A stretch of DNA of 64,000 nt, from NCBI RefSeq assembly GCF_029227915.1, contig NC_079878.1, positions 930,001-994,000 of the forward strand. Direction: 5' to 3'. Within the stretch, counting starts at the first letter, position 1; every line of letters starts with the position of its first letter. The translations under genes were made by a program, and so were the position numbers. The DNA comes from Hydractinia symbiolongicarpus (Eukaryota > Cnidaria > Hydrozoa > Anthoathecata > Hydractiniidae). Under the pieces are notes generated by a model. The model had not been told where the DNA came from. It did not search any database and worked only from the letters and a program-made list of their open reading frames with translations. This document shows, piece after piece, positions 24,901 through 58,405 of this stretch.

Positions 24901-27900
24901 ATGATGAAGGCGATAAATGTCCTTTATTGAATGATGACGATTTGGATAAATCGTTTGAATGTAAGAAAGATGAAATGGTCATACCAGACGACAGTGCAGA
25001 AAATAAAATGATATTTACATGCCAGCCAAGCAAAGGTAACAAGTTACTTTATTCAATCATCTCAATGTTCGCGAAAAATATGCAAAAAGTTCATTAGAAC
25101 ATCTATATTTTAGTGTCGCCATTTTGTAAAATAAATTATTACTTAAAAATTTATTTTATAGCTAAGACGATCAAAAACATCGAACAAAAAGACGATGAAC
25201 TATCGTCCTATGAAGACAGCAACTTTAAATTGTTATCAAATCCATCATCACTGTGTAAAAAGTTATCCCCTCTCTCAATATCAAAGAATAGACTGGGAAA
25301 ACTTCCACCATTGAATCATAAACAAGATAGCAGTGTGTTTGACCTTCCACCACTACCTGTAACTGGTTCGTCGTCAACTTTGATAAACAACAAAGATTCT
25401 GCAACTCAAGAATGTCAACTGCTTGCTGAAAACACAGATAATGACAATTCCACAAAAGATGAATTCAATGATGCTTCGAAAGGTGGCAATATTGATATTT
25501 TTATGTCAACAAGCAACGATGTCGAAGCGGATGCTAATTTATCAATGGAAAAACAACATGAAGTTGACAGTGATGCATCAACAAGTGAGACAGGATTAAT
25601 ACAACCAATTGCTGGAAGCCTCAATATGTTTTTAGCTCCACAGTCAAAAAATGATAAATTTGATGAAAGTATCAGTGAAGAGATTGGAGAAGAATGTGAA
25701 GAATCTGTAGCAAGTGACATTTCTACTTCTTTCAAAGAAGATGAAGTTGACATTTGTCCTTCATCGAATGATGACGATTTGAATGAATCGTTTGAAATTG
25801 AAGATGATGAAATGGTCATTCCAGACAACAGTGTGGAGGATAAAAAGATTGACATCTGTCAATCAAATGAAAGTAAATATTTTTGACTTAGCTACTATGA
25901 ACAACCAAACCTTCATGTTCTTACTTAAAAAATTAATCTTATATTAAGATTTAAACGAATTCCATGAATTACAGATAGAACTGTTATTTTATAGGAAAAC
26001 TTACGGTAAACATCAAAGAAGATAAAACTGAAAACCAAAGTTTACATTCTTCTAAAAATGATGAAGGCGACAAATGTCCTTTATTGAATGATGACAATTT
26101 CGATAAATCGTTTGAAATTAAGAAAGATAAAATGGTCATTCCAGACAATAGCGTAAAAGATATAGTGATTGACAACTGCCAATCAAAAAAGGGTAAGAAA
26201 CGTCTTGCCTCACACAAATAAGCATAGAAAACTCTATAATAGTGTGCAAAAATTATTTCAGCAATAAAAGTAAATTTTATTTACTATAGGCAATACCAAC
26301 AACAACATCGAACAAAAAGACGACATGTTATCGTCCTATGAAGATAGCAACTTTAAATTGTTATCAAATCCATCATCACTGTGTAAAAAGTTAGCACCTC
26401 TTTCAATATCAAAGAATAGATTGGGAAAACTTTCACCATTAAATCATAAACAAGATAGCAGTGTGTTTGACCTTCCACCACTACCTGTAACTGGTTCATC
26501 GTCAATGTTGATAAACAACAAAAATTCTGCAATTCAAGAATGTCAACCACTTGATGAAGTTTCAGATCATGACATATCGATTAAAGATGAATTCAATGAT
26601 GCTTCAAAAGGTGGCGATATTGACATTTTTATATCCACAAGCAACCATGTCGAAGTGGATGCTAATTCTACAATGAAAAAACAAGATGAAGTTGACAGTG
26701 ATGCATCAACAAGTGAGACAGGATTTATACAACCAATTGCTGGAAGCCTCAATATGTTTGCAGCTCCACAGTCAAAAAATGATAAATTTGATGAAAGTAT
26801 TAGTGAAGAGATTGGAGAAGAATGTGAAGAATCTGTAGCAAGTGACATTTCTACTTCTTTCAAAGAAGATGAAGTTGACATTTGTCCTTCATCGAATGAT
26901 GACGATTTGAATGAATCGTTTGAAATTGAAGATGATGAAATGGTCATTCCAGACAACAGTGTGGAGGATAAAAAGATTGACATCTGTCAATCAATTGAAA
27001 GTAAATATTTTTGACTTAGCTACTATGAACAACCAAACCTTTATGTTCTTACTTAAACAATTAATCTTACATCAAGATTTAAACGAATTCCATGAATTAC
27101 AGATAGAAATGTTATTTTATAGGAAAACTTACGGTAAACATCAAAGAAGGTAAAAATGAAAACCAAAGTTCACATTCTTCTAAAAATGATGAAGGCGACA
27201 AATGTCCTTTATTGAATGATGACGATTTGGATAAATCGTTTGAATGTAAGAAATATGAAATGGTCATTCCAGACGACAGTGCAGAAAATAAAATGATATT
27301 TACATGCCAGCCAAGCAAAGGTAACAAGTTACTTTATTCAATCATCTCAATGTTCGCGAAAAATATGCAAAAAGTTCATTAGAACATCTATATTTTAGTG
27401 TCGCCATTTTGTAAAATAAATTATTACTTAAATTTTTTTTTTATAGCTAAGACGATCAAAAACATCGAACAAAAAGACGATGAACTATCGTCCTATGAAG
27501 ACAGCAACTTTAAATTGTTATCAAATCCATCATCACTGTGTAAAAAGTTATCCCCTCTTCCAATATTAAAGAATAGGCTGGGAAAACTTCCACCATTAAA
27601 TCATAAACGAGAAAGCAGTGTGTTTGACCTTCCACCACTACCTGTAACTGGTTCATCGTCATCTTTGATAAACAACAAAAATTCTGCAATTCAAGAATGT
27701 CAACCACTTAATAAAGTTTCAGACCATGAAAAGTCGATTAAAGATGAATTCAATGATACTTCGAAAGGTGGCGATATTGACATTTTTATGTCAACAAGCA
27801 ACCATGTCGAAGCGGATGCTAATTCATCAATGGAAAAACAAGATAAAGTTGACAGTGATGCATCAACAAGTGAGACAGGATTTATACAACCAATTGCTGG

Positions 27901-29854
27901 AAGCCTCAATATGTTTGCAGCTCCACAGTCAAAAAATGATAAATTTGATGAAAGTATTAGTGAAGAGATTGGAGAAGAATGTGAAGAATCTGTAGCAAGT
28001 GACATTTCTACTTCTTTCAAAGAAGATGAAGTTGACATTTGTCCTTCATCGGATGATGACGATTTAAATAAATCGTTTGAAATTGAAGATGACGAAATGG
28101 TCATTCCAGACAATAGTGCAGATAACAAAATGATTTTGACATGTCAGCCAAGTAAAGGTAACAAGTTACTTCATTCAAGTATCTTAATGTTTGCAAAAAT
28201 ATTATGCAACAAGTTTATTAGAACCATTGTATGTTAGTGTCGCCATTTTGTAAGATAAAATGTTATTTAAAAAATTTACCTTGTAGGTAAGACGATCAGA
28301 AACATCGAACAAAGAGACGATGAACTATCGTCCTATGAAGACAGCAACTTTAAATTGTTATCAAATCCATCATCACTGTGTAAAAAGTTAACACCTCTTC
28401 CACCATTAAATAATAGATTGGGAAAACTTTCACCATTGAATCATAAACGAGATAGCAGTGTGTTTGACCTTCCACCACTACCTGTAACTGGTTCATCGTC
28501 AATGTTGATAAACAACAAAGATTCTGCAACTCAAGAATGTCAACCGCTTGATGACGATGACAGTAACAATGATGATGATGACGTCAATTTTGATGACATT
28601 GATGCGTTGCTGTTGGATTTAGATGAATTTGATTCGAAACGAGCTAATAAAAACCCAAAAGCTTATTGAAAATCAGAAGTTCGAACTTTAAAAAAATCAA
28701 CTCCGTATATTTGTTTGTCTCATGTTAGTGTTGTGACGTCATATATGTTGTGCTGTTTTAAAAATTGGGTCTAAAAAATACAAAAAATATATTTATTTAT
28801 TTATTTATTGCTAAACTTGTGCTTGTTTTTCATGCGATTAAAATTTGGATACACCAAACTGAATTCTGTGAAATTTAAGCAAGCTTTTCGTATTCATTTT
28901 TTAATAGTTTATTGAGATTATGCAATGTGGAACTTTTAGATATGCATGCAATGGAATTAACTACACCTATTTTGGTTCATCATTATGTAGATTTTTAATA
29001 ATAAAGCAGCACTGTATTTCTGAAATAAAAAAAATACGCTGAGAAAAAAAACCCTGGGAAAGAAGCTGGTATAAGGACTAATAATAAAATGTCAAGTATT
29101 TTAAGTAAAAGTAAGTAATATTAATGTATGATCAAAAAAGTTAAATGAAAGAACTCGAGATCTGAACCATTGACCTGTACTTCCGAAGCCATTATAAGGG
29201 AAGATAACAGTTATTTGCAACCTCTTTCCCAAGTCCTCTATTTCTCTATTTGAGAATTGTGAAAGGGTGAATATTTATTGTTTTAGAAAAAAAACTCTTT
29301 ATGAGTGAAGATCTCGTAAACTCGTTCTTATGGGCTTAAACTTTTGTTACGAACGTTGGCAATGTACTGAAGTAATCGCTGTTGACGTATTTGACAAAAG
29401 TCCATGTTGCTATAAACTTCTCAGAAAATCTTCACGTCTCGTAATTTTTTTCTTTTCTAAAATCCACCATCTCCGTTATCTTTTTCCCTCCGTGTTAATT
29501 CCCTGTCACGAGCTAAGGTCTTTAACGTAGGGAGAAATTCCATCATAACGAAGGAGCGAGGGAGTTTATTATTATTTAGAAAAAAAATACGATATCATGT
29601 CAAGTTTTCTGCTTTTTCTTTATTTAAGAACGCGAAACCAGTACTAGTATTTCTAAACTTAAAGACGAAACAAATATAAAACAAAATCTATACAAATATA
29701 CACTATTTCCATTACAGAGAGTGTGTCCATTTATTTAAAAGCTCTGTGTCAAAACATTATAATATTAAGTACGAGTACAAGTGGAAAATATTTTACCTGT
29801 AATAATTCCAAACAGACATAGAGTAAACACACAGATTCTTAACATGTTTGTCAT
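18913..29854 (-). CDS. Secreted Cys-rich protein with two 8-Cys modules
   Basis: Three exons on the minus strand: 29854-29797 (signal peptide), 19882-19637 and 19058-18913. All junctions are phase 1 and the total is 450 nt, i.e. 149 residues plus stop. Exon 1 encodes a hydrophobic leader ending ITA, with a plausible signal-peptidase site right at the junction. The mature chain has two homologous modules, each with eight Cys. Each carries GKCxC, then TGPN, then VEADxCLxxC. The second module is split by the intron at 19636-19059 and is followed by one extra Cys. Exons 2 and 3 are well supported. Joining them to exon 1 across about 9.9 kb rests on phase, leader quality and arithmetic only. I recognise no named family; the C-x-C and G spacing is vaguely EGF-like. 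No activity is claimed. The coiled-coil gene on the plus strand lies entirely in intron 1. Confidence 0.6.
19883..20790. other. Non-coding stretch between Cys-rich exon and coiled-coil gene
   Basis: No exon is recognised. Near 20105-20160 a TTTAGTGGTTATGCAGTGCG segment resembles a tRNA A-box region, perhaps a SINE scrap. The rest is unremarkable. Confidence 0.5.
20799..20879 (+). promoter_or_regulatory. CCAAT/CRE cluster before the coiled-coil gene
   Basis: Two perfect CRE palindromes TGACGTCA (20820-20827 and 20872-20879) and two CCAAT boxes (20799-20803 and 20841-20845) lie within 81 bp, ending about 107 bp before the first ATG at 20987. CCAAT boxes bind NF-Y, and CREs bind CREB/ATF/CREM in animals. 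The density suggests the core promoter. Isolated CREs also occur at 10683 and 28734. Confidence 0.65.
20987..28669 (+). CDS. Coiled-coil protein with exon-duplicated acidic tail
   Basis: Ten coding exons: 20987-23706, 23834-24378, 24485-24715, 24838-25035, 25162-25872, 25995-26192, 26290-27000, 27123-27320, 27447-28157, 28287-28669. They total 6606 nt, 2201 residues plus stop. Start: the frame is open upstream (from about 20942) but the first ATG is 20987. Residues about 18-42 form a Cys/His cluster (CxxC, then Cys, His, Cys-His) resembling a zinc-binding knot; a second CxC...CxxC group follows near residue 110-130. Residues about 130-905 are near-continuous Glu/Lys-rich coiled coil. The remaining 1290 residues are acidic and Ser/Asp-rich, built from repeated exons. 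The module EVDICPSSNDDDLNESFEI plus MVIPDNS recurs in exons 2-9. The longer exons add a Pro-rich block (VFDLPPLPVTGSSS). The C-terminus is acidic with LLLDLDEF. I do not recognise the family; a cytoskeletal or nuclear scaffold is only a guess. Confidence 0.85.
24485..28440 (+). repeat. Tandem 1.13-1.16 kb genomic repeat carrying exon pairs
   Basis: A unit made of a 198-nt exon, an intron, a 711-nt exon and an intron is repeated three times, starting at 24838, 25995 and 27123, with further partial copies at both edges. Exons 24838-25035, 25995-26192 and 27123-27320 are each exactly 198 nt. Exons 25162-25872, 26290-27000 and 27447-28157 are each exactly 711 nt. Introns are also near-identical: the intron after each AGTAAATATTTTTGACTTAG donor matches over more than 100 nt. 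The duplication is therefore recent or homogenised. Confidence 0.95.
28670..29796. other. 3' flank of coiled-coil gene
   Basis: No coding exon is seen. It holds a perfect CRE (28734-28741) in the presumed 3' UTR, a TTTA repeat near 28790-28808 and the AATAAA at 29000. Short open frames here lack any protein character. Confidence 0.5.
29000..29005 (+). terminator. Poly(A) signal AATAAA after coiled-coil gene
   Basis: AATAAA about 330 nt downstream of the stop at 28669, the first canonical signal in the 3' flank that I see. It is the likely 3' end of that transcript. Confidence 0.5.
29797..29854 (-). other. Signal-peptide exon of the Cys-rich gene
   Basis: On the minus strand an ATG at 29854-29852 opens 19 codons of a typical leader (MTNMLRICVF, then a Leu/Phe/Ile-rich core). 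It ends one base into a codon at a CAG|GTAAAA donor. The next exon (19882) begins with two bases that complete Ala and then runs in frame. The assignment could be wrong if another secreted gene uses this leader, but no other acceptor candidate was found. Confidence 0.55.
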
Positions 29855-38400: not shown

Positions 38401-41400
38401 TTTTTTATTTTTTTTATAATATTACAAAACTAAAAAACTTAATAAAGAAATATCAAATAAATCACGGAAAAAGAGTGTGGCTTTAAAAATTCTATTAAAA
38501 ACATGGTGTAAAACAACACGTGATTTATGAAGCCCTTTCATATTTTTTTGACATTTTATTATATCACAACTTTGTCTTTTTAGGTTTAGATCCACGTCTA
38601 TTATAAGTATAGGTTCCTTACACTTCACATGAATCAGGGTGTCTGCCAGACTTTGAAAACGTTGAAGGCAGAATAAGAGAGCTTAAAAAACCTATATTTT
38701 TCATTTTACAGGGAACCTTATAGTTTTGAAATATCAATAGTGTTAAAATATTTCTGTTTAGTAATGAAACATTGCCTCGTAGTAAGATATGGCTGCAAAA
38801 TAATCAACTTCCCATAGGTTTTAATGTTTGGTACTCCAACCTTTTGTTAGTTTTCGCATTACTTTAGTGCATACCTATAATGTAGGTATTTTCTGTAATC
38901 ACTTTAAAATTGAAAAAAAAATTGCTGATGTACAGTTTCTGGTTTTGCTACCTACTATTATTAGCTTCTTTTTATCTGTTTTGTTTGTGATCTTTGTTAA
39001 TAGCTCACAGCTTCTGTTGACGAGAAGGACAACAAAGTTTTACAACTTGATCAAAGTATAAAGCAACTTCAACAGCAATATGAATGCGAACGACACAACA
39101 CACAAGCTGCAATGAAAGCACAAGATGAGAGAATAAAAGAACAAGAAAAAAATATGAGGTTTGTTTTGCCTTATAACTTTAAAAACAGAATAGAAGTGCA
39201 TTTATATGAGTTCCCTCGTTGCTTATATAGTAAGGTGCACGAAAAAATGAGCACCTAGAAAATATTTTTACCTAGTGTTTACCCCTCATACCGTTCTTTT
39301 TTTTATTGAAATAAAGCTGTACTTTGCATTTTATCAGGGATAAACGCTGAGTAAATTTTGTTTTGTTTTGTACCAAACCTCTTTTCAGAATTGTTGGAAA
39401 ATTTAAGTAATTTATTTCAGGGAAGAATTGGCGCGTGATCAAAAATTAGCTGAAGACCAAGTTAAGGAGATGCAGAAAAGTTTAGTAGAAGTTGAGAAGA
39501 AATATAACGAGTCTCTGCGCGAGTATAAAACGTTGGAACGTAATCTCTTTCAAGCTAACCACGAGAAAGAAAGTCTAGTTCATACCGTGGAAGAATTGAA
39601 ACAAGAAGTGCCTCGCTTGAAATCTGAGCACCAGCACGTGTTGGCAGAAGTGAAAAGGGACCTGGAAGAGGCTCATAAGAAACAGATAGCTTCTTTTGAA
39701 ATTAGGCTTCAAGAGAAGCAGAGAGATAACGCAGTAATGGCGGACGAATACAATAAAGTTAAAAATGAAATATCTTTGTTGAACAAAGCATTAGCAGAGA
39801 TCAATGATAAATACATGAAAGCCATAGATGAGAAAAATAATGCGGAAAAGAGAGTAGCTCAGTTGAGCTTAGCTATGGAGGAGCTCAATCAAACATCCGT
39901 AGCAAAGCTGAAAGAAGTAGAAAAACAGCTGTCTGAGAAGCTGAAGGAAAAGGAGGAACACAATAGCTCGTTATCGAAATCAGTTCAAGAACACCTACAG
40001 AAGCTTGAGGAGTACCGTAAAGAAGTTGATGTTAAAAAACAGTCTGCGGAGGAGTACAAATATAAGTACGAGTCCGCAGAAGCGACGTTGAACAAATTGA
40101 AGAAGGAGAAAACCGATGTTGAAAAAGAATATGCTCTCCATATGAAAGATGCTGAAAAAAGAGAATTAGAACTTGTGAAATCTGCAGAAAGGGCCGAACA
40201 CGCCGAAAAGGTGATAAAAGAGCAGCATAATTTATTGCAAGTTCAAGTTGAAAAATCAAACCATGAGCTGTCTGTATTGAAAGAAAAGTTTAACAGCTCG
40301 TCAAACGCTCTCCAAGCGAAAGAGAGGGAATTGTCCTGTTTGGCCGAGCAATGCGAAGCCACCGTGAAAAAGTTGTCTCAGAAAGAAGAACAGCTAAAAG
40401 TTGTGGATGAAACAATCAGGAGGATTACTGAAGAAAGGAATAAGTATCAGAAGGAATTTCAAGAGTTTGAAGGGAGAATTGACAAAAAGAACACCGAAAT
40501 CGAAACCTTATCGACGTGTCTCGACGAAGTGAAAGCAATAGAAAATGAGTTGCAAGGTCGTGTTGGTGAACTGCACCGAGCTGTTGAAGAGAAGACAAGC
40601 AAGCTGGAAGCAGTATTGGTAAAAGAAAAAGAATGGAAGGTTGAACTAAACACGAAGGAAGGTTTGCTTGATGAAATGGGTGAAAAACTCCACAATTTAG
40701 AAGAAGAAAAAAACTCGCTGCTTGAGTTTGCAGAACAAAGGCAACAGGTTGTCACGCAGAGGGATAATCAAGTGCAAAAAATGACTGCTGAATGTGAAGA
40801 TCTATCCCGACGCTTGGAAGAGGAGGCAGAGTTTAAGAAGAGCTTGGAAGCAAAATGTATGGACGTGTCCACGAAATTGGATCAATCCCATCAAGCATTG
40901 CATGATAAATGTATGGAACTCAACAAAATGGAAAAAGAATTCCAAGAACAAGTAAGGCTTCTATTGTTTTTACTTTCTTTAAATTTTAGGCGCAGAACTT
41001 TTGTTTTCATTGAGCTAAATCGTACAATGCGAAGACGTCCATCTTTTTAGAGGTTGTTTGTGCAATGTGAGGTTTTATACAGGCGGGTATTCCGCCGTTT
41101 TGATACCGTTTAAATTTTGCGCTTACGCTCTAAAGCTTTGTAAGGGCTCACACAGCACCAAAAATGGCCTGATGCGCCGTACATACACAAATTTTTGTAT
41201 ATATTCAAACTAAACACCGTAACGGTCAGCAAATTTGTCCACGTCAACTAGAAGTCAAAAAAGAGGTCGTGAGTTCGATCTCCATTTAATGCAGTTGTCA
41301 AAATGTGAGAGAGTTCCATGAACTTTTGCACTTTGTTTACAAAATTTTAAACAATTTGCATTAAACGAATAACAAACAATGTCCATGGTGCGAGATAAAC

Positions 41401-44400
41401 TTTGCAACTTTAACTTACAGTGATATTTTGAATGAATATTTTGCAAATTTTTATGTTCTGACTTTTAGCTGTTTTGTCTCATTTTAAAATAGTTTGGAAA
41501 TAAAAACAATTCGTCCCGTATATCTTACCCAGGTAAACAATGCTAGGGGCGTTTTTTCCCTAAGTAGCTAAACAATGTTTAGGGCTATGTGCAAAAAATT
41601 AATTGTTTATAAAAATAATGAAAATGCTCTACCTCCCTACCAAAAAACATCTTTTATGTAGCTTGTAAGTTTTTCGTTCTAGTATGGAAACGCTAAAGAG
41701 GAAATCCAACTCGTTTTGAAGGAAAAAGAAAATCTTTTTGAAAAAATTCAGTCGCTTGAAGAATCTTTTGATGGTCTCCAGCAAATCAAATTGAGAACGG
41801 AAGCCAACATGTTAATGATGGCGGAGGATCGCGAGAGCTTATTGCAAGAGAAGAACGAGCTGAACACCAAATTTGAAGAAATGCAAAGCGAGGTGACAGA
41901 CGTCACCAATAAATACAGCCAGTTGACCAAACAATATGAAGAACTTTGCTCGCTTATTCAAGTAAAAGAGGAAGAAATTGCAACTTTTAAAGATAATCAA
42001 GTCAAGTTGGAGCAAGAACATCATTTTAAGGAACAAGAACTTAAATCCACCGTGAACGAACTCACCATGAAGAATGAAGAACTAGAAGAAAGTGTCTTAA
42101 CATTAACAAGTGAAAACGAGCAGTTTGAAACAAAGGCTACCACCATTGAAAAGGAATATAACACCATGTCAAGTGAGTTGTCATCTCTTAGTATTGACTA
42201 CGAAAAAATAAAGAGTGAACGAGACCAACTTTCAACAGAGAACCAAACGTTTAATGCTAAACTCGAAGAAAGTTCAGATCTTCTGCAAAGCAAAGACACA
42301 GCTGTGCAAGAATTGACGAAGCAGGTGGAGAGTTTGCGGGATGACATGCAGATGAAGACAAAATCTTATGAAGATCTCATGACAGAACGAAACAACGTGC
42401 AAGCCCAGTTGGAAATTACACAAGACGATCTCAACCAAATCAACGAAGCTCTCTTTCAAAAGCAAGAAGAATTGGACTGTGTGTCTTCAGAGTCGTCAGG
42501 TAAGATTGCAGAGTTGATGACTCGGGTAGAACAGCAAATTGAACAAATACAAGAGCTACGCGAAAGGATTGAATATCTAGAAGAAAAATTAAACGCCTTG
42601 GATAGTTTGATGAAAGAGAAAGAAGAAGAGTTGCGGCGGGCTTCTGAACGTGTTACAAAACTTGAAGAAGAACTGCAAGCATCGTCAGAACATGTCATCA
42701 AGTTGAGCAGCGATAAACGCTATGTTGAAGTGCAACTCAGCACCGCTTGCGGCGAGTTAGAACAAAAGTTGCGTATGATCGACGATCGTGACAATTCGCT
42801 TCTTACTTTGACTGAGGAAATGAAAAAGAACAATGAAGCATATGATAAAGACATGACGTCCAGAGATGAACAAATCAAAAACATGGAATGTAAGATGTCT
42901 TTTGTCGCAAGTGAGCTTCAGCAAGCGAACGACCTGCTTCAAACTAGGGAGGAAGACAACGAAGAGTTACTCGAAAAAGTCGAAGAGCTAATGAAAGAAT
43001 CGGACGAACTAAACGAAAAGTTAGCAGCTGAACAGAAGCTATCTGAAGAACAAAGATGTCTAACGCAGCAACTTGGTGAGAAGCACAAAATGACAGAGGC
43101 AATGTATACTGAGTCCAAGACGTACAGTGAGGAGCTGGAGAAAAAGATACGTGTCGGTGAAAGCAAATTAAGTGAGTTAGAGATTGATATCGATACATTA
43201 AATGATAAAATCGAATCTCTAGTAGTTAACGCTAATAAATTGGAGAGTGATTTAAGTAATAAAACCGAAGAATGCAACTCGCTACAGTCTGATTGTGAAA
43301 ACACTCGATGTCAATTCCAAGAATTAAGCATTGCGATGAAGAGAAAAGATGTTGAATTAAAATCATCTGCGGATGAGATCTTACAGCTTAAAAACGAGAA
43401 GTCATTGGCGGAGTCCATGTTGGCTTCAGCGAACGAAAAGTTCATGCTGACAGAAGAAGAACGGGTAAAATTACTTCAAGAGGCGGAGGAATTAAAACAA
43501 TGTTTAAAAAATACTGAAGCTTCCCTTGAAAACGCGAGAACGCTCCAGTCGGAAGTAAATAACAAAATGCAGGAGGATGCTCTCCATCATCATGATGAAG
43601 TTGAGAAAAAGGAAGATGAAATACGTGAAATGAAAGTACAAATGTCTGCATGCCAGTCTTCTGTTGAAACGCATCTCAATACTATAAACGTAATTAAAAT
43701 CAGATTTGAAGAGGAAAGAACTGCGCATCAAAACGAGGTTACCCGACTCTCAAAAGAAAACGCTGAATTACAGGAACGTTTGAATTATTTGGAAAATCAA
43801 ATAAAAATATTGCAGGAAAGTCTTAGTGAAAAAGAAGAAAGCTTAACTGACATGTTAAACCAGGCTGAAGAAACGGATGAGATACTCATGAAGCTTAGAA
43901 AGGAACATGACAGTGTGTCTAATGAAAAGATTGAAAACGAGGCTCGCCACCAAAAAGAGGTGGAACAATACCAAGACACGTTAAACAAAAAACAAGGCAA
44001 ACTGAAGGCTCTCATGGATAGCAATGATACTTTGCAGAACAAAGTTGTAATGTTCGCTGAGTTAATGGAATCTGTACAAAATAAACTGAAGCAGGAGCAA
44101 GACAGACATACTCAAGACAGCATAAAATGGAGTAAAAAGATGGCGGAACTTGAGGGCGTCTTAAAAGAGAAACACGCGGAAATAGAAACAACCTCTACGG
44201 AATTTGACCAATTGAAGACGAGCCATGGGAAAGAAGTTCATAAGTTGAAGTCGTTTGTCGCAAATTTGACTGACACTTTGAAAGAACGCGATGCACAACA
44301 TGAACAAGTTGTTCAAGGTTTAACAGAACAGTTCGAACAGAAACACCGCGAAATTCAAGAAGAGTTGGAAGTTAAAATCATGCAATATAACTCTCTGCAA

Positions 44401-47400
44401 ACGAACTATGACGAGAATGTGCAAGGGAGTGAAAAATCGTTGCGCGATAAAGAAGTGGTAATCAGTGAACTTAAGGAAGTTCTTTCGGAAAAGGAAAAAA
44501 GTATGGCTGAACTAGGATTGAACCTCAACAACATTCAGCTGCAGTTATCCAATGTGACATGTGAAAAGGAGCACCTTTTCTCAGAGCTTGAGAAATGCAG
44601 CAAAGATTTGCGTGCAGCCATGAGTCAGATTGATGCTGAAGGTTTGACTTTTAAAGAAAGAATGATAGAAGCGGATAAAGCGATAACTTCTCTCGAGTCG
44701 AATCATCAAAGCGAGATAGAAAGGTTTGAAAGTGAAATGGCGAGGTTAAAGGAAAAACAGGATGATTTGCAGGCGGCTAAGGAGATTCTTGAAAGCCGGT
44801 GTCAAAAATTGGAGGAAGAGTTTTCTACGAAGGAGGGAATATTTCAGGAAAGTGAAAGCAAGTCGGAAGCGCTTGGAGCAGCCTTAAAACAGCGAGAGAA
44901 CGAGCTGCAAGAAATGCAAAGTCGACATGCTGAAGAACGTAGTGAATGTGAAAACAAAATGTCTACCTTGCAGGGAAGCCTAAATAACACCCTTCAAAAA
45001 TTGGAGCTAGCTTGCAAAGAACACGAAACCGTGACGCAGAAATATGAATCCTTGGAAAAAGACATGGTTGTGAAGATTAAAGCTCTTGAGTGTTCTGTAT
45101 TTCAAAGTCGGCAGCAAGCCGACCTATTCAAAGCGGATATCGACGCAAAGGAGACTTTAATCTCTGGTTTGAACGAGGAAAGTGAGGAGTTAACCAATAA
45201 GAATCAAGAAATAGAGTCGTGCTATGAAGAACAGTTGAATGATTTAAATGATGCGTTATTGCAAACTGAGAAGAAACTCGAAAAAAAGTGCGAAGAAGTT
45301 GCTGAACTGACCAGTCGAGTCACAAATCTAAAGCAGGAAACATTGTTGTCTTCAACACAATCTGAACAAGAAAGGCAACACATGGAGGCAAACTTTAAGG
45401 AGCTGTTGAGTGAAAAAGAGCAAGTCATCTTGAAAGTAAATGGATTGTTAGAAGAAAAGAAAACATCGTTGTTAGAGAAAAATAAAGTTATAAAACAGCT
45501 TAATGTTGAAGTAGAGGAAAAAGAGGCATGTGCAACTTCACTTCAAGAAAAAATTAAAAACTTAACACAACAGTTCGAAGACGCCGTGACCACGTATGAA
45601 CAGCAGGCGGATGACATTAGGGCTTCGTTAAGTTCTTTTAAAAACGATAATCAGCTGCTTCAAGAGAAAATCGAGGATTTGAAAATTGAAGCACGAAATG
45701 AAAAAGAGACGATTCAGGGTGAACTGAACGCACGTGTAGATTCGTTAAGCTCGGAAAATAGTACGTTGGCAGAAACGATGAAATCCTTAGAACTATGTAT
45801 CAAGGAAAAAAATAATAAAGTCACTGAACTTTTAGAGAAGATTAAAGAAGATAAAAATAAACTTGAAAGTTGTGAAGATTCGATCAAAACTTTGACTGCC
45901 GAAGAATGCAGGTTAAAAGAGAAGAACGAAATTTTGAAGTCAGAAGTCCACACAGGATGCAAAGCGAAGGAAGAATTGGAAATTCAATGTTCGAAGTTGA
46001 CAGATCATCGCATATCTTTACAAGCTGAATTATCGACGACTAAAGAAGAATTGGACAGTGTGAATCTAGCTTTAAAAGCAAAGGATAGTGAAAACACTGA
46101 ATTAAAGGAAAAGTTAAAAGGACTCTACAACCTTAAGTCTGATCTTGACGGAAACCTTCGAGAACAAAGCCGTAAGCTTATTGATTTAGAGACTAGATTT
46201 AGAGATATGATGGAAAAAGTTAGCAAGATAAAGCAAGAAAGAGATGAACTCGTTGAAAAACTCACCAAAAGCGAGGAAAAAAACTTGCAACTCGAAAAAG
46301 ACGCCATTAGCACTCGCGAAAAGTTAGAAAATTGCAAAGAGACGTTGGAGCATGCTGAAAGCGCCTTGGTAGCCACAGAGACGAAATTAAACGAAGTATT
46401 AAGTTTATTACGACAAAGAGATGAAGAATTGAACGATGCGCTGGGAAAACACGAAGAACTGACCTTGCAACTTCAAAACAAAGAAACCGAATGCGTTTCT
46501 AACGTGGAAGATATTCGTAAGCTTCAAGAAAAGATCGAAAAGAATGAAATTATGATCAACGATTGTGAATGCGACAAACGTAGTCTTCAACAACAAGTCG
46601 ACGAATTGCGGGATGAAATCTCGTCAGTGCAGGTCTGCAAGGACGAACTTGCCGTTAATTTAAAAGAGAATATCGAACGCTTCACAAGTGAGAAACTGGA
46701 GTTAGTAAATAAGTTATCTTCTGCTGAAAGTGTGACCGCAGAAGTGAGTGAGGAGTTAGGTGAATGCAAAACAGTTTTGAACGTTTTAAAAGATGACATC
46801 ACTACGTTAACTGAACGTAAAGAAGATTTAAAAAAGCAAAATAAAATTCTCGCTGACAAGTTAAAGGAAGAAGAAAAACGAGCGGAAAAAGCTATTCAAC
46901 ATGGCGACGATTTGTCGATCAAACTAAAAGCGGTTCTAAGCGATAAGGACAGCGCAGTGCAGAGTTTAATCGACGAAAAAGAAAAATTGAAAACTCGAAA
47001 CTGTGAAATCAATGAGTTGTATAAAAATGTGTCGGCGGAAAAAGAAAATCTGAGCAGTCAGCTGGTAAACTTTTCGCGTGAGCAGAACCAAGCTGAAGAA
47101 GTGATCAGTAGCTTAAAGGTAGACAAAGAAGAATTGACTAAAAAGTTAGAAGACACGGAGAAGGTTCTCGAAGAAAGGGCAGCATTACAAGTCGTGTTAA
47201 AAGAAGAGTTGTTGCAGAGTAACTCTTTATGTGAAAGTCTTCAGCGAGAAACTTCAGAGGTTCAGCAAGCCGTTGAGAAGGAATTGAATGAACTAAAAGA
47301 GAACGTCGTAGAAAAAGATGATTGGCTCCGCGAGAAAGACCTTAAGATTGGAAAACTCGAGCAGGACATCGAAACTCTTAGAAAAAAATTGACAGAATCT

Positions 47401-50400
47401 GAGGATGCATTGAGCTACGCTGGAACCATGAAAGAGGAGTTTGCCACGCAGTTAGAGGACACGCAGAAATTGTTGAAAGCTGAACGGAAGGCTAGATGTG
47501 AAGCTGAACAGTTGAGTGAAACTCATCTAGAGACAATCAAAACATTAAAAGAAGAAGTTAGGAAAATTAAAGAATCTTTTGAGTATCTGACCACGGTCAA
47601 GTTGGAAATGAACGAAGAACTTCAGAGTAAATCCACTAAACTTGACAACGCCAAGGAAGAAAAAGAAACTGTTTTAAAACAATTAGAAACTTGTAAGGCA
47701 CGGTTGGATGATTTAGAAAGTAAAACTGTAAGAGAAAAAGAGTTGAATGACCAAGTCCAAAAGGAAAGGGACCATTTCAAGAGCGAGGTAAACAAGCTAA
47801 GAATCTGTTTCGACACGTTAAATGAAGAGAAACACAAGAACGTGGAAAATTTGAACCAAGTAAACATCAAACTACAAGAGATGCAAACCTTGTTAGATGC
47901 TAAACAGAAGGAAGTGCGTAAGATGGAGGAAGCGCTTGGAAATGAGAAAGAAAACAATGTGTGCCACAAAGCGGAGATTTCAAACTTGAATATAAGTCTA
48001 GTAGAAGCGCAGAAATCAGCAGAGAAAGAAAAGCGAAGAGTGAAAAAACTACAACACGATATGGAAAAGAAAGATCTCTCAATTAGTGAACTTGAGCAAC
48101 AACTTAATTCGCTTAACTGTCAACTCGCAACGAAGGAAAACGCGCTCAAAGAAACCGTGGAAAATCTCACGAGAGCCGAAAACACACTCTCTTTAGAGAA
48201 AGAGATGCATACCTCGAAGCAGGCAAAACTAGAAGAAATTAAAAAAAGTCTAATGCGTTCTCGCGCGCTTTCCTCCCAAGAGGATATTACTTCAGATAAT
48301 TCTAACTTAGACGAAACTATTGATTTCAACTCGCAGATACTCAAATTACAAGAGGAGATTGTAAAGGTATGGTTAATTTGTTTTCTTTTTGCATTTCCTG
48401 TTTAAATACTCTTCTCCGGTCTTTTTATAATTTTCTATGGTTAAAATTTTACAACGAATGATAATGCTAACTGAAATGGTAACTGCGAAAAGCAATCGGC
48501 AAATCCTATATATTTTCTTGGTTACTATAAATCTATTAGCAAGTAGAGTAAAAACTAGTGGGCTATACAAAAAAAGGTTTTTACTGTCAATGCATCTTTC
48601 TTAGCTTGAAAAGGACAAAAAGCAGATGGTGGAAGCAGCTGTTGAAGAAGAAAGACTTCGTATAGTTGAAGCATCCAAACAATTTGTTCTCGAGAGAGAA
48701 AAAGAAAACGAGACTCGTAACCAAGATCTTCTCGATGATATCAAGCTAAAAGAAAAGAAGATTACAAATCTTCAAAAAACGATCTCACAAAAAGAGGAGG
48801 AGTGTAAACAGTTCGAGTATATACTGAGCAAGGAAAAAGAAACGTACCAAGAGCTATTGAAAACATCCGAAGAAGAAAAAAACGTGACCAGCGTGACCGC
48901 ACCCGCTGAGCGTTTTAACGGAGATGAAATTAATGAGATGCGAGAAAGGCTGGAGAGGGCTAAATTACAGAATGAAGAGCTAAGAGGAGATTTTGCGAAG
49001 ACGGTAGATGATTACGAAAGAGCTAAGGCAAAGGAAAGTCGCGAGTTTGGTAAACTAAAAGAACAATGTGAAAACTTTAAATCGCTTTGCGAGAAGAAAG
49101 ACGTTGATTTGAAACGTTTAAAAGCTTTGACGATAGAGCCAAGACGAAACGAGAAATTACTGGAAGATTTGCGTGAAAAGTTAATGTCCTCGGATGAGAA
49201 ATATATCACGCTGGAATTCAAAAACGAAGACTTGCAGAATGCGTTAAAAAGCGCAACAAAAAAACACGAAATTGAAATGAGTGGAATCAGTAAAAAATTG
49301 TCTTCCCTAATGAAGGATAACGATCAATTGCGATTAAAACTTGAGGAAACCATGAAAAGGCTTTCCTTGCTTGAAAAGGAAAATTTGATATTAAAAAAAG
49401 ATTTAGCAGCGTATCCGTTTGCAAAAAACAGCATGGTATCGCCTTTAACGAGATCTTTATCTTCTTTGAAAGTGTTGTCAAGCGAAGATGATTCTACAAA
49501 CGATGTCTCTTCCATCCAAACCAACTCTTCCATCCAAACCGACTCGTCGCGAGTGCAATCTCAAGCTAAAGGGATTCTGAAAAAGTCATCTGAGACTCCA
49601 AAACGGAGTATGGAATCTACAGGTTGGTACAGGTGTAAACTTTTTTTATACAACTTTGCTTCCATTCTTTTCACTTAAGAAGAGGGCGGGGTAATTCCAC
49701 TTCAAACTCTTTGATTTTTCGTAGCTAAACTTTTAAAATACTGCTCCGTTGCTAAGCTTCGATTCTGCTAAGATGTTCAGGGATACACTTTGTCAGGAAT
49801 GTGAGAATTTTTTTTTTAAATTGTCAAAATGTCAGAAAAAGTCAAGAATATCAGGAACATTGCGTCAAAGCTATGATGTTTTTTTCAAGTATCAATATTT
49901 TGCTTTATTAATATACTTGTTGTTAAATGTACTTATAGGGTAATCTAAGGTTTCATTCCAATAACGAATGTGTTCTCAAACCAGAACAACTAGAAATATC
50001 AAAAAAAATATCGCTGATTCGCAAACGATTTGTTCTGTGGTTAGAATACTGACCGCGCTGATTGGTTGGTTACTTTCACTTGATCATTATCGGGAAACAT
50101 ATTTCTTGTTTTAAGCAAATAACTGCCGAAATTAAAATTTGAATATTACGCCTAGATTTTAGACTGAAAAAATGAGTAAATTTGAGGCTAAACTCGAAAT
50201 TAACTTTGCAAATTTTCAGTCTGGTCAGTTGCTGACCCAGATCACGTCCTGGAACTTTTACTCGCCTTATTAACCGAACAAAAGTGACATACAAACCAAT
50301 CATTATGAAGCATGATAATGTGCACGTGCTCTTAAATAAGTCGTGTATACTAAAATTTCCTGAACTTTCCCACTATATTTCTTTTATGCCATGTCATATT

Positions 50401-54014: not shown

Positions 54015-57000
54015 CTACGTTCTTTGTGGGGCTACAAAAGGTCTCTGTTGCGCTCCACCAAATGGTCTCTGTTGGGCTCCGCCAAATGGTCTAGGTGGTG
54101 CACCAGGCGCTCCAGGTGTCTGTCCTGGACGTTGCTGTCTGTTGTCATCACGCTGAAAAAAGAAAAATGTTGTTTATGTTTGCTGTTTCTGACTAACTTC
54201 AACAAAAAAAATTGTAGCCAATACACAACGATTCGTTAATATTTACCCTCATTCCGAATCTTGGCGGTGGAGTACGGATTTTTCTGTCTTCTCGAGATCT
54301 GTTACGCACAACCTTCGAATGGATAGCACAACTCACACAGTAGCTCAATTTTGCATACAGTTTAGGAAGTTGGTAACCTATAAACAAACAGAACTAACAT
54401 TACAAGTGACGAAGATGTATTTACAGACAACTAACATTCACGACAGGATGACATGATGTTGCAGACAAAAAGAATAAAAATGAAATTCAAGATGAAGAAT
54501 CTGCAGGTGTGCAATCTTACAGGTGTGTACACCATTATTTAGTCATGGCACTCAATAAAGGTGTGTGAGTCCACGGTGGAGAATGGTGATTAATTTAGCA
54601 TCGTTTATTAATCACTGCATATAAATAATGCACAATTACTCAAACAGTGCAGATTCAATATAACTAGTTTTCCTTATACAGCCGAAGGATTTCAGTAAAA
54701 AAAGGTTGACGGATTGGATTACCTAACTTATCCACTGTAAATTTGCAGTATGTATTTACCTTGTTTTGAGAAGCTAAACAATGTTTAGGGCAAAGTGAAA
54801 AAATCAATTGTTTATAAAAAAAAGTAAGAAATTTGTACGCCCAAAAATGGAATATGCGGAATAAACTTTTGCGGATAGAGACCTCAAAAGAGATATTGCA
54901 GAATAAATTTTTGTGGATGCAAGAAATTTGGTAAATCGAAAGTCAGGAAAAACCTAATTACTATCTCGCCTGCGAGGAGTATTTAAATACAGCTGTCCGT
55001 CCTAAAATGGAAATTTTTGGCTCTCTGAGCACCGACACGGGAGTAGTCGTGTGTTCGAATCTTATCTTGGTAACTATTTTTACTTTTTTTTTTCTTTTTA
55101 CTATCTCGCCTGCGAGGATAGGTTTCCAACTCGTAACCAACTAAATGTCCCAAATGGTCAATTGCAAAAAGGTATGCTGAACATAATAGTGACATCATAA
55201 TTTTGATTTTTGTCACCTAAATGTCATTTTAGGCCAAAATTGGTCTGAAATTAAAACTACTTTATTTTCGACAAAATTTGGCACAGATAACAAAAAAGTA
55301 TGCTAACATGATGGTGACATCAAAATTTTAATTCTTTGTCACCTAAATGCCGTTTAAGACCATAAACGTTTCAATCGCGCGACTTTTAACCATTAGCAGA
55401 AATTGTAGAATTGGGTCGCATTGTGGATGTTTCATAGTTGTGCATTTTTAATAGCGAGATAGTTTATGCAGCGCCTGCATCTTGTTTAGTATGAAAAACA
55501 TCTGTCTAATTTTAATTAAAAAATCAAATATTTTTATTTGGTCAGTAACAGATCAGTAAGGTTAGAAAACATGTGTTCACCAATTTTTAGAATATATCAG
55601 GGTTAAAAGAACTACGTCACGAAACATGATCCATGGTCCGAAACAAGACCACTGGAAATGCATACTTATTACTAAACACAAGCAAATTGGCTATGAAGGT
55701 GAATTTTGCATGAACTATTTTCTTTGATAACTAGTATCATCATGTCATTAAACAAAACCCAACTCCCTTAACTAGGCTAGAGTAAACATTATATCAATGC
55801 TTTACAACCCTGTCATGATTTTAAATGTACACTATTTTTTAGTCATGGTAACTCAATTTAGAATGCACATGAGTCCACGGTGGAGAACAGTGATTTATTT
55901 AGCAATGTTTATTAAATTTTACATATAAATAACGTAAAACAACTCAAACAGTGCAAACTTATTTAAAATTTGTTGTTTCTTGACCATCTAAACGATACTT
56001 CAATGGTAAAGTTAAGTAGGTAACATGTCAGGGGACCCTTTCCAGTCATCAGGTAAACTAATTACACAGGAGTGTATTGGTTTAATTGTTTTTCCACATG
56101 GTTTTTATTTTTCACAAAAAAATTTATTTACTGCGTGTTTACTATGTAAAACATGAAATGAAAGATTGCGTATATCCAAGTTCAACAACTTCTCATAGTC
56201 GCAGTTCAATGACGTTTTAATAAAAAAACACTATACTCCCTTGTAATGTACTGTGTACTCTCTTCGCTAAAACAATTTTAATTTTAAGAGAAAATAATAG
56301 CTTTTATTAAAAGGACTAAAATGTAACACATAGTCCTGGGGGGAAGAGATGGTTGTCACTATAAGCATTTCAGTCAGGAATTAATTCTGACTTTTGGTGA
56401 TCAATGTAGCTGTTTTCGGCAATGTCTCTTTAATAATAACCGTCGTCTGTCTGCCTGTGTGTCCACGAAAGCCGCGGCCCGTAACGGGAACACAACACAT
56501 ATTTTTGTTCACTTTGTTGCAACGGGTAAATTTAAAGGACTGGCGACCCCGTGGACCTTTTCCACGGGCTAATGACTAGTCTATATTATAATACCTGTAT
56601 ATGTCTCTCTGTCTGTCACGCAAAATGGTAGCTTAGCTGCACAAGTACGCACAGTATAAAAAGGACTGGCGAACCTGACGACTAGTTTATTTAATTTTCA
56701 GTTGGTTTCAATACAGTACCAACAAATGTAAACTCGACTATTTTACTACGACAATATATTTATTGAATGTACACTATTTTTTAGTCATGGTAACTCAATT
56801 AAAAATGCACCTGAGCCCACGGTGGAGAATAGTTAGTTCTTTAGCATCATTTTAAGACCTTGTTTTATGCAATAAAACAAACTCATTATTAAAACAATGC
56901 TGCATAACAAGAATTAAAAAATGTTGAATATCTTACTTTCATAAACGCTGGCCTCACTTAAATCTCGCACAGCAGCTGCTTCAACAATATTTCTTATAAC

Positions 57001-58405
57001 AAATTTTTTGATGGCCTTATCCTTGGGGACACATCGGGCACAGTTTGTGCATCGGACATATCGGACGTGTCCACGGCCACTTTTGTTCCGTCCACCATTC
57101 CTTCGCTTTTGTGTCTAAAAAAAGAAAATAATGAGAAATTGTCTTTGAACAATTTTAGGGTGACTTACAAATTGAAAAATACATGCTGAACGCCAATTCC
57201 ATGTTTAGATAACACAATGATTGCAAGAACCTTTTAACTTGTTGTTAAAAACCCTTGCTAAACTTGCGTTTAACTGAAACAAGTCAGTCAGGCCTGAAAA
57301 TTTGGCAGAAACGATCGTTTTGTTTTTGCAACATTTCTGCGAATCAATAAAGCTGGTAAGGATAAATCGTTTCCCTTGGAGAATATTTAAATTATAATCA
57401 TTTTATATTATAATATATATTATATATTTATATTATAATATTTTACTATAGAGTAGGTCTTGTCACTGACCAGGGGGATTATGAAATGGATCTCCACTTA
57501 TCCACAAGGTCCACTTGGAAGAAACGAAAAATGTTTTGATTGTTTCCGTCAGCTTCAAATCGCGGTAATGATGGATCGTTTCCCTAGAATCCATAAATTT
57601 TAAGGCCTGTCATTTATGGTAAAGTGTCTTGGTAAACTACAGTGCCTTTTTTGTGGTGCCGTAGATTAGTGGTTATAGCTGTCGTGCTCTGTGTGGGAGA
57701 CCGGATTTTCTGGGCCCTGTAAACTTGCCATGAGTACCCTAAAGAAATTAATTTTTACGGGAATTAATTTTTGCAAGTCTATATTATAATACCCATATAC
57801 ATCTGTCTGTCACGCAAAATCGTAACCGCATTAGCGAGACACGAAATGCAGGTAATAAAGGACAGGCTGAGCCGTGGATTTATCTATTTTTGTCAATTTA
57901 GGGAAAATTAGTTCTCACAAATTTTTTTTCAAATATATCTTGTTTGAATCAAAAAGTTTTTTCCATGTTTTTTCCGTCTTATAGCCAAAAGTGAGTCAGT
58001 CGGAGGACGCGAAATAACATATTTTTGATGGCGACCTAACATATATGGCACTTTCCGGCAAGTTGGCAGCCTCTTCCCAACTGATATTGCACAGGAAGAA
58101 CTGACACCAATCAAATCCTGTTTAATTTTAAGACACTGTAGTTTGATTAAATGACAAGTGCAGGTAAGGTAGAAGATGCCGTTTAAATGACACAGTAACT
58201 GCCAGAATGAAGTTTTTAATCACGCAAGGAATTTCTTCTATCCAGGATAAAAAGGTACTGGCTACATTTCTTTAGTTTCTAGCTCGCTAAATTGGCAAAT
58301 ACATATCTAATTCTCAGTATGAACAAATTTTGTAATAAAAATTTTCTGTCACGTTAATAAAGCTTGTATAACTCTAAATAAACGATCAGTTTGCACTCTT
58401 ACCAT
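54015..58405 (-). CDS. RPS26: Ribosomal protein eS26 with extended C-terminus
   Basis: Minus-strand exons: 58405-58403 (only the ATG), 57114-56937, 54377-54247, 54152-54015; 450 nt, 149 residues. The body matches eS26 throughout: KRRNGGR...[63 protein letters not shown] and VVRNRSRED...RTPPPRF. The two CxxC pairs that bind zinc are present. eS26 sits at the mRNA exit of the 40S subunit. Human eS26 is 115 residues; here the last exon adds about 46 residues, rich in Gly, Pro and Gln, with RPFGGAQQ occurring twice and then RPFVAPQ. Exon 1 ends exactly at the ATG. Intron 2 (56936-54378) contains three H/ACA snoRNAs in the same orientation. Confidence 0.95.
54523..54652 (-). ncRNA. H/ACA snoRNA, copy 1 (RPS26 intron 2)
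   Basis: Read on the minus strand: a 5' hairpin closed by GCACTGTTT / AAACGATGC with an apical TGCAT...ATGCA, then box H AAATTA, then a 3' hairpin closed by CACCATT / AATGGTG, then ACA three bases before the end (ACA at 54528-54526). The pocket strands in the 3' hairpin are CTCCAC and ACTAA, with upper stem CGTGG/CCATG. The upper stem base lies 15 nt before ACA. The sense strand matches the host gene. The pocket fits 18S UUAGU-UG-GUGGAG. Confidence 0.8.
55013..55078 (+). mobile_element. Possible tRNA-like SINE head
   Basis: CTCTGAGCACCGACACGGGA then GTGTGTTCGAATCTTA, a good B-box match, followed by a T-rich run. The A-box is poor. It lies between two copies of ACTATCTCGCCTGCGAGGA (about 54962 and 55099). 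Confidence 0.3.
55130..55400. repeat. Dispersed tandem repeat, about 126-bp unit
   Basis: Two units (GTATGCT at 55172 and 55298) with GGTGACATCA, TTTTTGTCACCTAAATGTC and ACAAAATTTGGCACAG. The same family forms a longer array at 61060-61475 in the prohibitin intron. Nearby GCGAGATAGT (about 55455) pairs with ACTATCTCGC (about 55099), perhaps terminal inverted repeats of the carrier element. Confidence 0.75.
55823..55954 (-). ncRNA. H/ACA snoRNA, copy 2 (RPS26 intron 2)
   Basis: Same architecture as copy 1: a 5' hairpin with an apical stem GTAAAA-type pairing that differs in sequence from copy 1 yet still pairs, box H AAATAA, a 3' hairpin closed by CACTGTT / AATAGTG (imperfect), and ACA at 55828-55826 followed by three bases. 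The guide strands CTCCAC and ACTAA and the upper stem CGTGG/CCATG then ACTCA/TGAGT are unchanged. Confidence 0.8.
56423..56579 (+). mobile_element. Non-autonomous Helitron-like 3' end
   Basis: It ends with a perfect 8-bp hairpin CCCGTGGA...TCCACGGG (56548-56568), then CTAATGA and CTAG (56576-56579). This is the arrangement of Helitron 3' termini (hairpin then CTRR). The 5' end is probably near TCTCTTTAATAATAACCG at about 56423. No Rep/helicase ORF is present. Confidence 0.6.
56580..56685 (+). mobile_element. Short Helitron-like element TC...CTAG
   Basis: It starts TCTATATTATAATACC immediately after the CTAG of the preceding element and ends in ...GACGACTAG at 56685. The same 5' sequence recurs at 57779 (TCTATATTATAATACCCATA ... 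CTGTCTGTCACGCAAAAT). The repeated start words show that it is a family. Confidence 0.6.
56765..56900 (-). ncRNA. H/ACA snoRNA, copy 3 (RPS26 intron 2)
   Basis: The 5' hairpin is closed by GCATTGTTTTAA / TTAAAATGATGC (12 pairs, two of them G-U, which form only on the minus strand). The apical stem is TTGTTTTA...TAAAACAA. Box H AAAGAA follows, then a 3' hairpin closed by ACTATT/AATAGT, upper stem CGTGG/CCATG then GCTCA/TGAGT (one G-U), ACA at 56770-56768 and three more bases. Guide strands are CTCCAC and ACTAA. It lies 36 nt inside the intron from the splice donor of the 57114-56937 exon. Confidence 0.85.
57650..57778 (+). mobile_element. tRNA-derived SINE-like sequence
   Basis: GTAGATTAGTGGTTATAGC is a good tRNA A-box region, followed by CGTGCTCT and GTGGGAGACCGG, where the B-box would follow but is decayed. 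It lies in RPS26 intron 1, directly before the Helitron-like start at 57779. Confidence 0.45.
57779..57875 (+). mobile_element. Helitron-like 5' end fragment
   Basis: TCTATATTATAATACCCATA followed by CTGTCTGTCACGCAAAATCG matches the start of the element at 56580. The 3' end was not located. Confidence 0.45.

Follow-up and report, generated by a model that had tools for sequence, protein, structure and literature searches.

Three related elements, which we call S1, S2 and S3, lie in the second intron of RPS26, a ribosomal-protein gene, on the minus strand of the window (the whole 64-kb stretch of DNA that was analyzed). The exons of the window, joined in one reading frame, match Pfam Ribosomal_S26e at 7.1e-53. 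This match, the joined exons and the splice sites bear out the original prediction that RPS26 intron 2 is the host of all three elements. The intron is 2559 nt long, with its 5' splice site at 56936 and its 3' splice site at 54378. Among the best 120 of 2355 relatives of the RPS26 protein, few of which were named, Hydra vulgaris was 84% identical over 80% and Nematostella 80% identical over 74%. The top row of these 120 was a contaminant record (unverified) filed as Acipenser (73% over 85%), and a plant entry (47%) and a diatom-type entry (61%) were also matched. By these relatives the host is probably cnidarian.

54378..56936, minus strand: RPS26 intron 2, host of S1, S2 and S3; GTAAGA...TTATAG, flanking exons join in the RPS26 frame

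Several other features of the window were noted in passing. A repeat of approximately 50 bases, TCTATATTATAATACC...TCTGTCTGTCACGCAAAAT, is found at 56578-56630 in intron 2 of RPS26 and at 57776-57824 in intron 1 (86-96% alike), and apparently belongs to a dispersed element. An exact 21-base direct repeat, TTACTATCTCGCCTGCGAGGA, occurs at 54958-54978 and 55098-55118 in intron 2, 140 bases apart, and could mark the ends of a small insertion. Elsewhere there are gelsolin repeats (12998-16271), tandem paralogous open frames on the plus strand (23829-28669) with the common stretch VDSDASTSETG.IQPI.GS.NM and an acidic tail, and very long plus-strand open frames of coiled-coil type (39407-49678; 547, 2240 and 357 aa), apparently the exons of a single large protein.

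The three elements and their boxes, with fold z-scores relative to dinucleotide shuffles and scores against Rfam models, are as follows.

54523..54652, minus strand: S1, predicted H/ACA snoRNA, 130 nt, the 3'-most copy; fold z -2.26; SNORA4 31.5 bits, below cutoff
55823..55956, minus strand: S2, predicted H/ACA snoRNA, 134 nt, the middle copy; fold z -3.03; SNORA4 19.6 bits and SNORA40 23.6 bits, neither reaching its cutoff
56765..56902, minus strand: S3, predicted H/ACA snoRNA, 138 nt; fold z -3.68; SNORA4 22.2 bits, below cutoff
54591..54596, minus strand: S1 box H, AAAUUA, unpaired hinge in the fold
55895..55900, minus strand: S2 box H, AAAUAA, unpaired hinge in the fold
56837..56842, minus strand: S3 box H, AAAGAA, unpaired hinge in the fold
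54526..54528, minus strand: S1 ACA box, 15 nt from the upper stem
55826..55828, minus strand: S2 ACA box, 15 nt from the upper stem
56768..56770, minus strand: S3 ACA box, 15 nt from the upper stem

S3 starts 34 nt past the 5' splice site of the intron; at the other end, 145 nt separate S1 from the 3' splice site. Minimum-free-energy folds of all three elements gave a hairpin, a hinge, a second hairpin and a tail. Each has an ANANNA hinge between its two hairpins and an ACA followed by three bases at the presumed 3' end, so that the anatomy originally proposed for the three intron copies (hairpin, box H, hairpin, ACA) was recovered with its boxes located. In every 3' pocket, 15 nt separate the upper stem and the ACA, within the 14-16 nt expected of H/ACA RNAs; PMC7991803 describes this spacing as usually 15-16 nt in eukaryotes. 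The 5' pockets were not clearly delimited in the folds. The extents first proposed needed only a small correction, in that the third element reaches 56902. In Cajal-body H/ACA RNAs (scaRNAs), the CAB box is a UGAG in a terminal loop; in the folds of S1-S3, UGAG is present at stems and internal positions and never in a terminal loop.

The elements were also proposed to be read from the host-sense (minus) strand. On this strand, shuffled sequences folding as well as the element were rare (2/200 for S1, 2/200 for S2 and 0/200 for S3). The same intervals on the plus strand had z-scores of -1.05, -0.84 and -2.55, with 29/200, 42/200 and 1/200 shuffles folding as well for S1, S2 and S3, respectively. 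S3 is therefore well folded on both strands, and its strand is fixed by the boxes and the host rather than by energy. With the boxes and host taken into account, the minus strand holds for all three.

The shape of an H/ACA RNA proves little by itself. We applied a shape filter to the 2694 ACA triplets on both strands of the window, and six passed: S1, S2, S3 and three others. The same filter passed 4 of 2458 and 7 of 2442 triplets in two shuffled windows, so shuffled sequence yields as many. A minus-strand candidate from the filter, with its ACA at 57720 in RPS26 intron 1, folds at -31.5 kcal/mol and has the hinge UUAUAAUAU; shuffles yield such candidates too. The guide strands behave otherwise: CUCCAC...ACUAA at the correct distance from ACA occurs three times in the window, compared to 11 times in 300 shuffled windows and never more than once in any of them. 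The joint pattern of guide strands and ACA spacing is more than chance.

The three elements are similar to each other and their surroundings are not. Pairwise identity was 0.71-0.78 for the elements versus 0.50-0.59 for the 100-nt flanks, against a baseline for random pairs with a mean of 0.52 and a 95th percentile of 0.58, which a single flank pair (0.59) slightly exceeded. The homology thus ends close to where the RNAs are predicted to end. In an alignment of the three, 94.9% of 98 cells pair, and sliding the partners reduced this to 31-47%. Two-sided changes were found at 5 of 33 pairs. Among five covariation measures, four were equaled in 1/500 shuffles and the other one, further pair types, in 95/500; with only three related rows, and a structure derived from those same rows, this is modest evidence. 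The claim that the 5' stems differ in sequence yet still pair stood for the lower stem, which pairs in 100% of cells, and less well for the upper stem, where only 81% pair and the fold of S3 itself differs. A search of the 64-kb window with a covariance model of the three (R1) revealed no fourth copy that rose above noise. There were seven hits up to an E value of 5, of which three were the training rows; the next was at 19144-19263 on the plus strand (22 bits, E 0.054) and lacks CUCCAC.

The 3' pockets, read from the folds and the target scan, contain the following guide strands.

54576..54581, minus strand: S1 3' pocket, 5' guide strand CUCCAC
54539..54543, minus strand: S1 3' pocket, 3' guide strand ACUAA
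55880..55885, minus strand: S2 3' pocket, 5' guide strand CUCCAC
55839..55843, minus strand: S2 3' pocket, 3' guide strand ACUAA
56822..56827, minus strand: S3 3' pocket, 5' guide strand CUCCAC
56781..56785, minus strand: S3 3' pocket, 3' guide strand ACUAA

The original prediction called this pocket invariant, and it is: both guide strands are identical in S1, S2 and S3, with the ACA 15 nt away each time, and the flanks of the elements are at background identity. We scanned 1475 uridines for complementarity to it, in one complete 18S rRNA (L005, 1800 nt), 5.8S and two pieces of 28S (2485 and 671 nt); these rRNAs come from eukaryotic rDNA in records with bacterial titles and belong to eukaryotes other than the host species. 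For each of the three elements, the best uridine was 18S U1290, the site originally predicted, with 5+6 Watson-Crick pairs and a score of 13.5 (runner-up, 9.4). Guides shuffled from the S1 strands reached 13.5 at any site in 14 of 2000 cases. The pairing at U1290 in the rRNA of these other species is bipartite and leaves UN unpaired: the guide strands pair with 18S 5'-UUAGU-UG-GUGGAG, and the predicted target U precedes GGUGGAG in UUAGUUGGUGGAG. L006 and L007 carry the 13-base target motif in their 18S as well. The 18S of L005, with its length of 1800 nt and a 5S upstream on the opposite strand, fits a Saccharomyces-type repeat, and position 1290 is accordingly read in yeast numbering.

Two observations were made on the sequence records themselves. 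The loci L003-L007 are eukaryotic rDNA inside five genomes or MAGs with bacterial titles (e.g. Planomonospora, BMQD01000062.1), evidently contamination. In viral contigs, the 5' end of 18S was not found, and the gapped guide pattern matched four loci (L008-L011, with L010 and L011 showing the same stretch), none with an ACA at the correct distance, for which reason these matches are taken as chance.

The predicted target is a known site of modification, a point on which the original prediction did not remark. In yeast, snR83 is required for 18S Psi1290 and produces Psi1415 as well; at ac4C1280 it competes with the ac4C guide snR4 (PMC9045821). A table in PMC3542256 places human ACA4 and 18S U1347 beside snR83 and 18S U1290, and lists an Entamoeba counterpart. 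In chicken, the 3' hairpin of ACA4, from intron 9 of EIF4A2, pairs through 7+5 nt with 18S-1305 (PMC2653536). The assignment of S1-S3 is stronger for this, and its novelty smaller.

The original prediction named a covariance search of the intervals as a check. The Rfam model SNORA4 (RF00394; cutoff 56 bits) matched all three elements, every time below its cutoff, with E values of 0.034 for S1, 0.67 for S2 and 0.19 for S3 (from searches of different size). For S2, SNORA40 scored above SNORA4 (E 0.024), also below cutoff. No Rfam family reached its cutoff anywhere in the window.

We conclude, with a probability of roughly 0.9, that S1-S3 are box H/ACA guide snoRNAs encoded in the intron, that they became paralogues through duplication inside it, and that they serve the predicted 18S U1290/U1347 site. 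Their place, fold, boxes, spacing, complementarity and paralogy are computed directly. Each snoRNA would be freed from the spliced and trimmed intron 2 of RPS26, and the freed RNA would then be bound by the H/ACA core proteins to form a particle. These proteins are dyskerin, NOP10, NHP2 and GAR1. The 3' pocket would pair with 18S 5'-UUAGU-UG-GUGGAG and the unpaired U would be pseudouridylated. The reason for three copies in one gene may lie in dosage or redundancy and not in different targets.

The last point bears on whether the elements are double guides, with 5' hairpins directed to other targets that vary by copy. The original prediction had allowed that the 5' hairpins could serve other sites, and the scan of 18S, 5.8S and the two 28S pieces gave no convincing 5' pocket target; only two results for S1 came near the edge. 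With a spacing of 12-17 nt, the 5' side of S1 pairs with 18S U121, which adjoins yeast Psi120, through 9+6 pairs (score 14.9), and 1 of 30 shuffled rRNA sets did equally well. With 14-16 nt, its best site was position 459 of the 28S piece L007c (13.4, 8+5 pairs), equaled by 2 of 30 shuffled sets. Because six such 5'-pocket searches were made, 1/30 or 2/30 is weak. The best site of S2 at 12-17 nt was the same U121 (score 11.4), but 13 of 30 shuffled sets equaled it, and S3 at this spacing was matched by 28 of 30. At 14-16 nt, shuffled sets did as well in 21 of 30 cases for S2 and 28 of 30 for S3. Moreover, the U121 pocket is 12 nt from box H and its register is one off Psi120, and the two strands that form it are base-paired to one another in the fold, in a stem that stays paired in all three copies. 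Copy-specific 5' targets are therefore unlikely.

A single functional copy accompanied by two decaying duplicates would also account for the triplicate. Cis-duplicates are common and some no longer guide, according to PMC2653536, and the SNORA4 scores of S2 and S3 are below that of S1. The elements have drifted to 0.71-0.78 identity, yet each retains both guide strands, the ACA and the spacing, and the boxes H all fit ANANNA, which makes decay improbable. It is far less probable still that S1-S3 are a dispersed mobile repeat that folds like an H/ACA RNA by chance. The same RPS26 introns do contain other repeats, and H/ACA-like shapes do arise by chance, but in the 64-kb window the covariance model of the three detected nothing further above noise, and all three are host-sense, share one intron and fit a uridine known to be modified.

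If S1-S3 are paralogous guides, their arrangement departs from the usual one H/ACA RNA per intron and is mildly unusual. PMC11028025 describes animal host genes as carrying mostly one snoRNA per intron, and two snoRNAs in an intron as able to give sno-lncRNAs such as SLERT. Duplication of snoRNAs inside a host gene is ordinary (PMC2653536, PMC3412847), and in Drosophila 27 ribosomal-protein genes host snoRNAs (PMC2246290). With three H/ACA particles on one 2.6-kb intron, exonuclease trimming from the two sides could halt at S3 and S1, and there is a slim chance that a stable H/ACA-ended RNA of approximately 2.4 kb (56902-54523), or a shorter RNA likewise with two such ends, is made from RPS26. 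In that case an invertebrate ribosomal-protein gene would yield an H/ACA sno-lncRNA, and an internal cut would be needed to free single snoRNAs. The three-in-one layout makes intron processing, as a single snoRNA per intron or as hybrid RNAs, testable beyond vertebrates.

Both guide and target belong to known kinds; what is mildly unusual is only the presence of three copies in one intron. S1-S3 are probably new counterparts of SNORA4/snR83, duplicated in cis; a narrow literature check found no earlier report of them. They would place a likely guide of a deeply conserved 18S pseudouridine in an RPS26 intron of a probable cnidarian. The predicted pairing is the one that defines the functional family of SNORA4/snR83 (18S Psi1290 in yeast, 1347 in human), and we call S1-S3 functional counterparts of these RNAs and not members of the Rfam family. 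Common descent is likely, since the same hairpin performs the same job.

Like SNORA4/ACA4 (RF00394), S1-S3 use the 3' hairpin for the same predicted 18S U (human U1347, chicken 18S-1305), and their sub-threshold matches run along the whole model. Unlike it, all three score under 56 bits, and the match of S2 is limited to 55824-55932 with SNORA40 scoring higher. Chicken ACA4 is one copy in EIF4A2, whereas here there are three in one intron of RPS26. Yeast snR83 guides the site predicted for S1-S3 but also Psi1415; U1415, one of the scanned uridines, was not among the top two sites of any 5' pocket of S1-S3. When S. pombe snR92 (RF01444) is aligned to S1, its pocket has the same letters, CUCCACC and GACUAAAU, but the score of S1 is 24.1 bits and the cutoff 80. 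Sponge RPL13A, as described in PMC3412847, is similar in that an early-branching animal has a duplicated H/ACA RNA in a ribosomal-protein host with the essential elements kept. There, one copy lies in each of two neighboring introns, whereas RPS26 has three in one, a clean case of triplication in which the guide strands are fixed and the remainder drifts.
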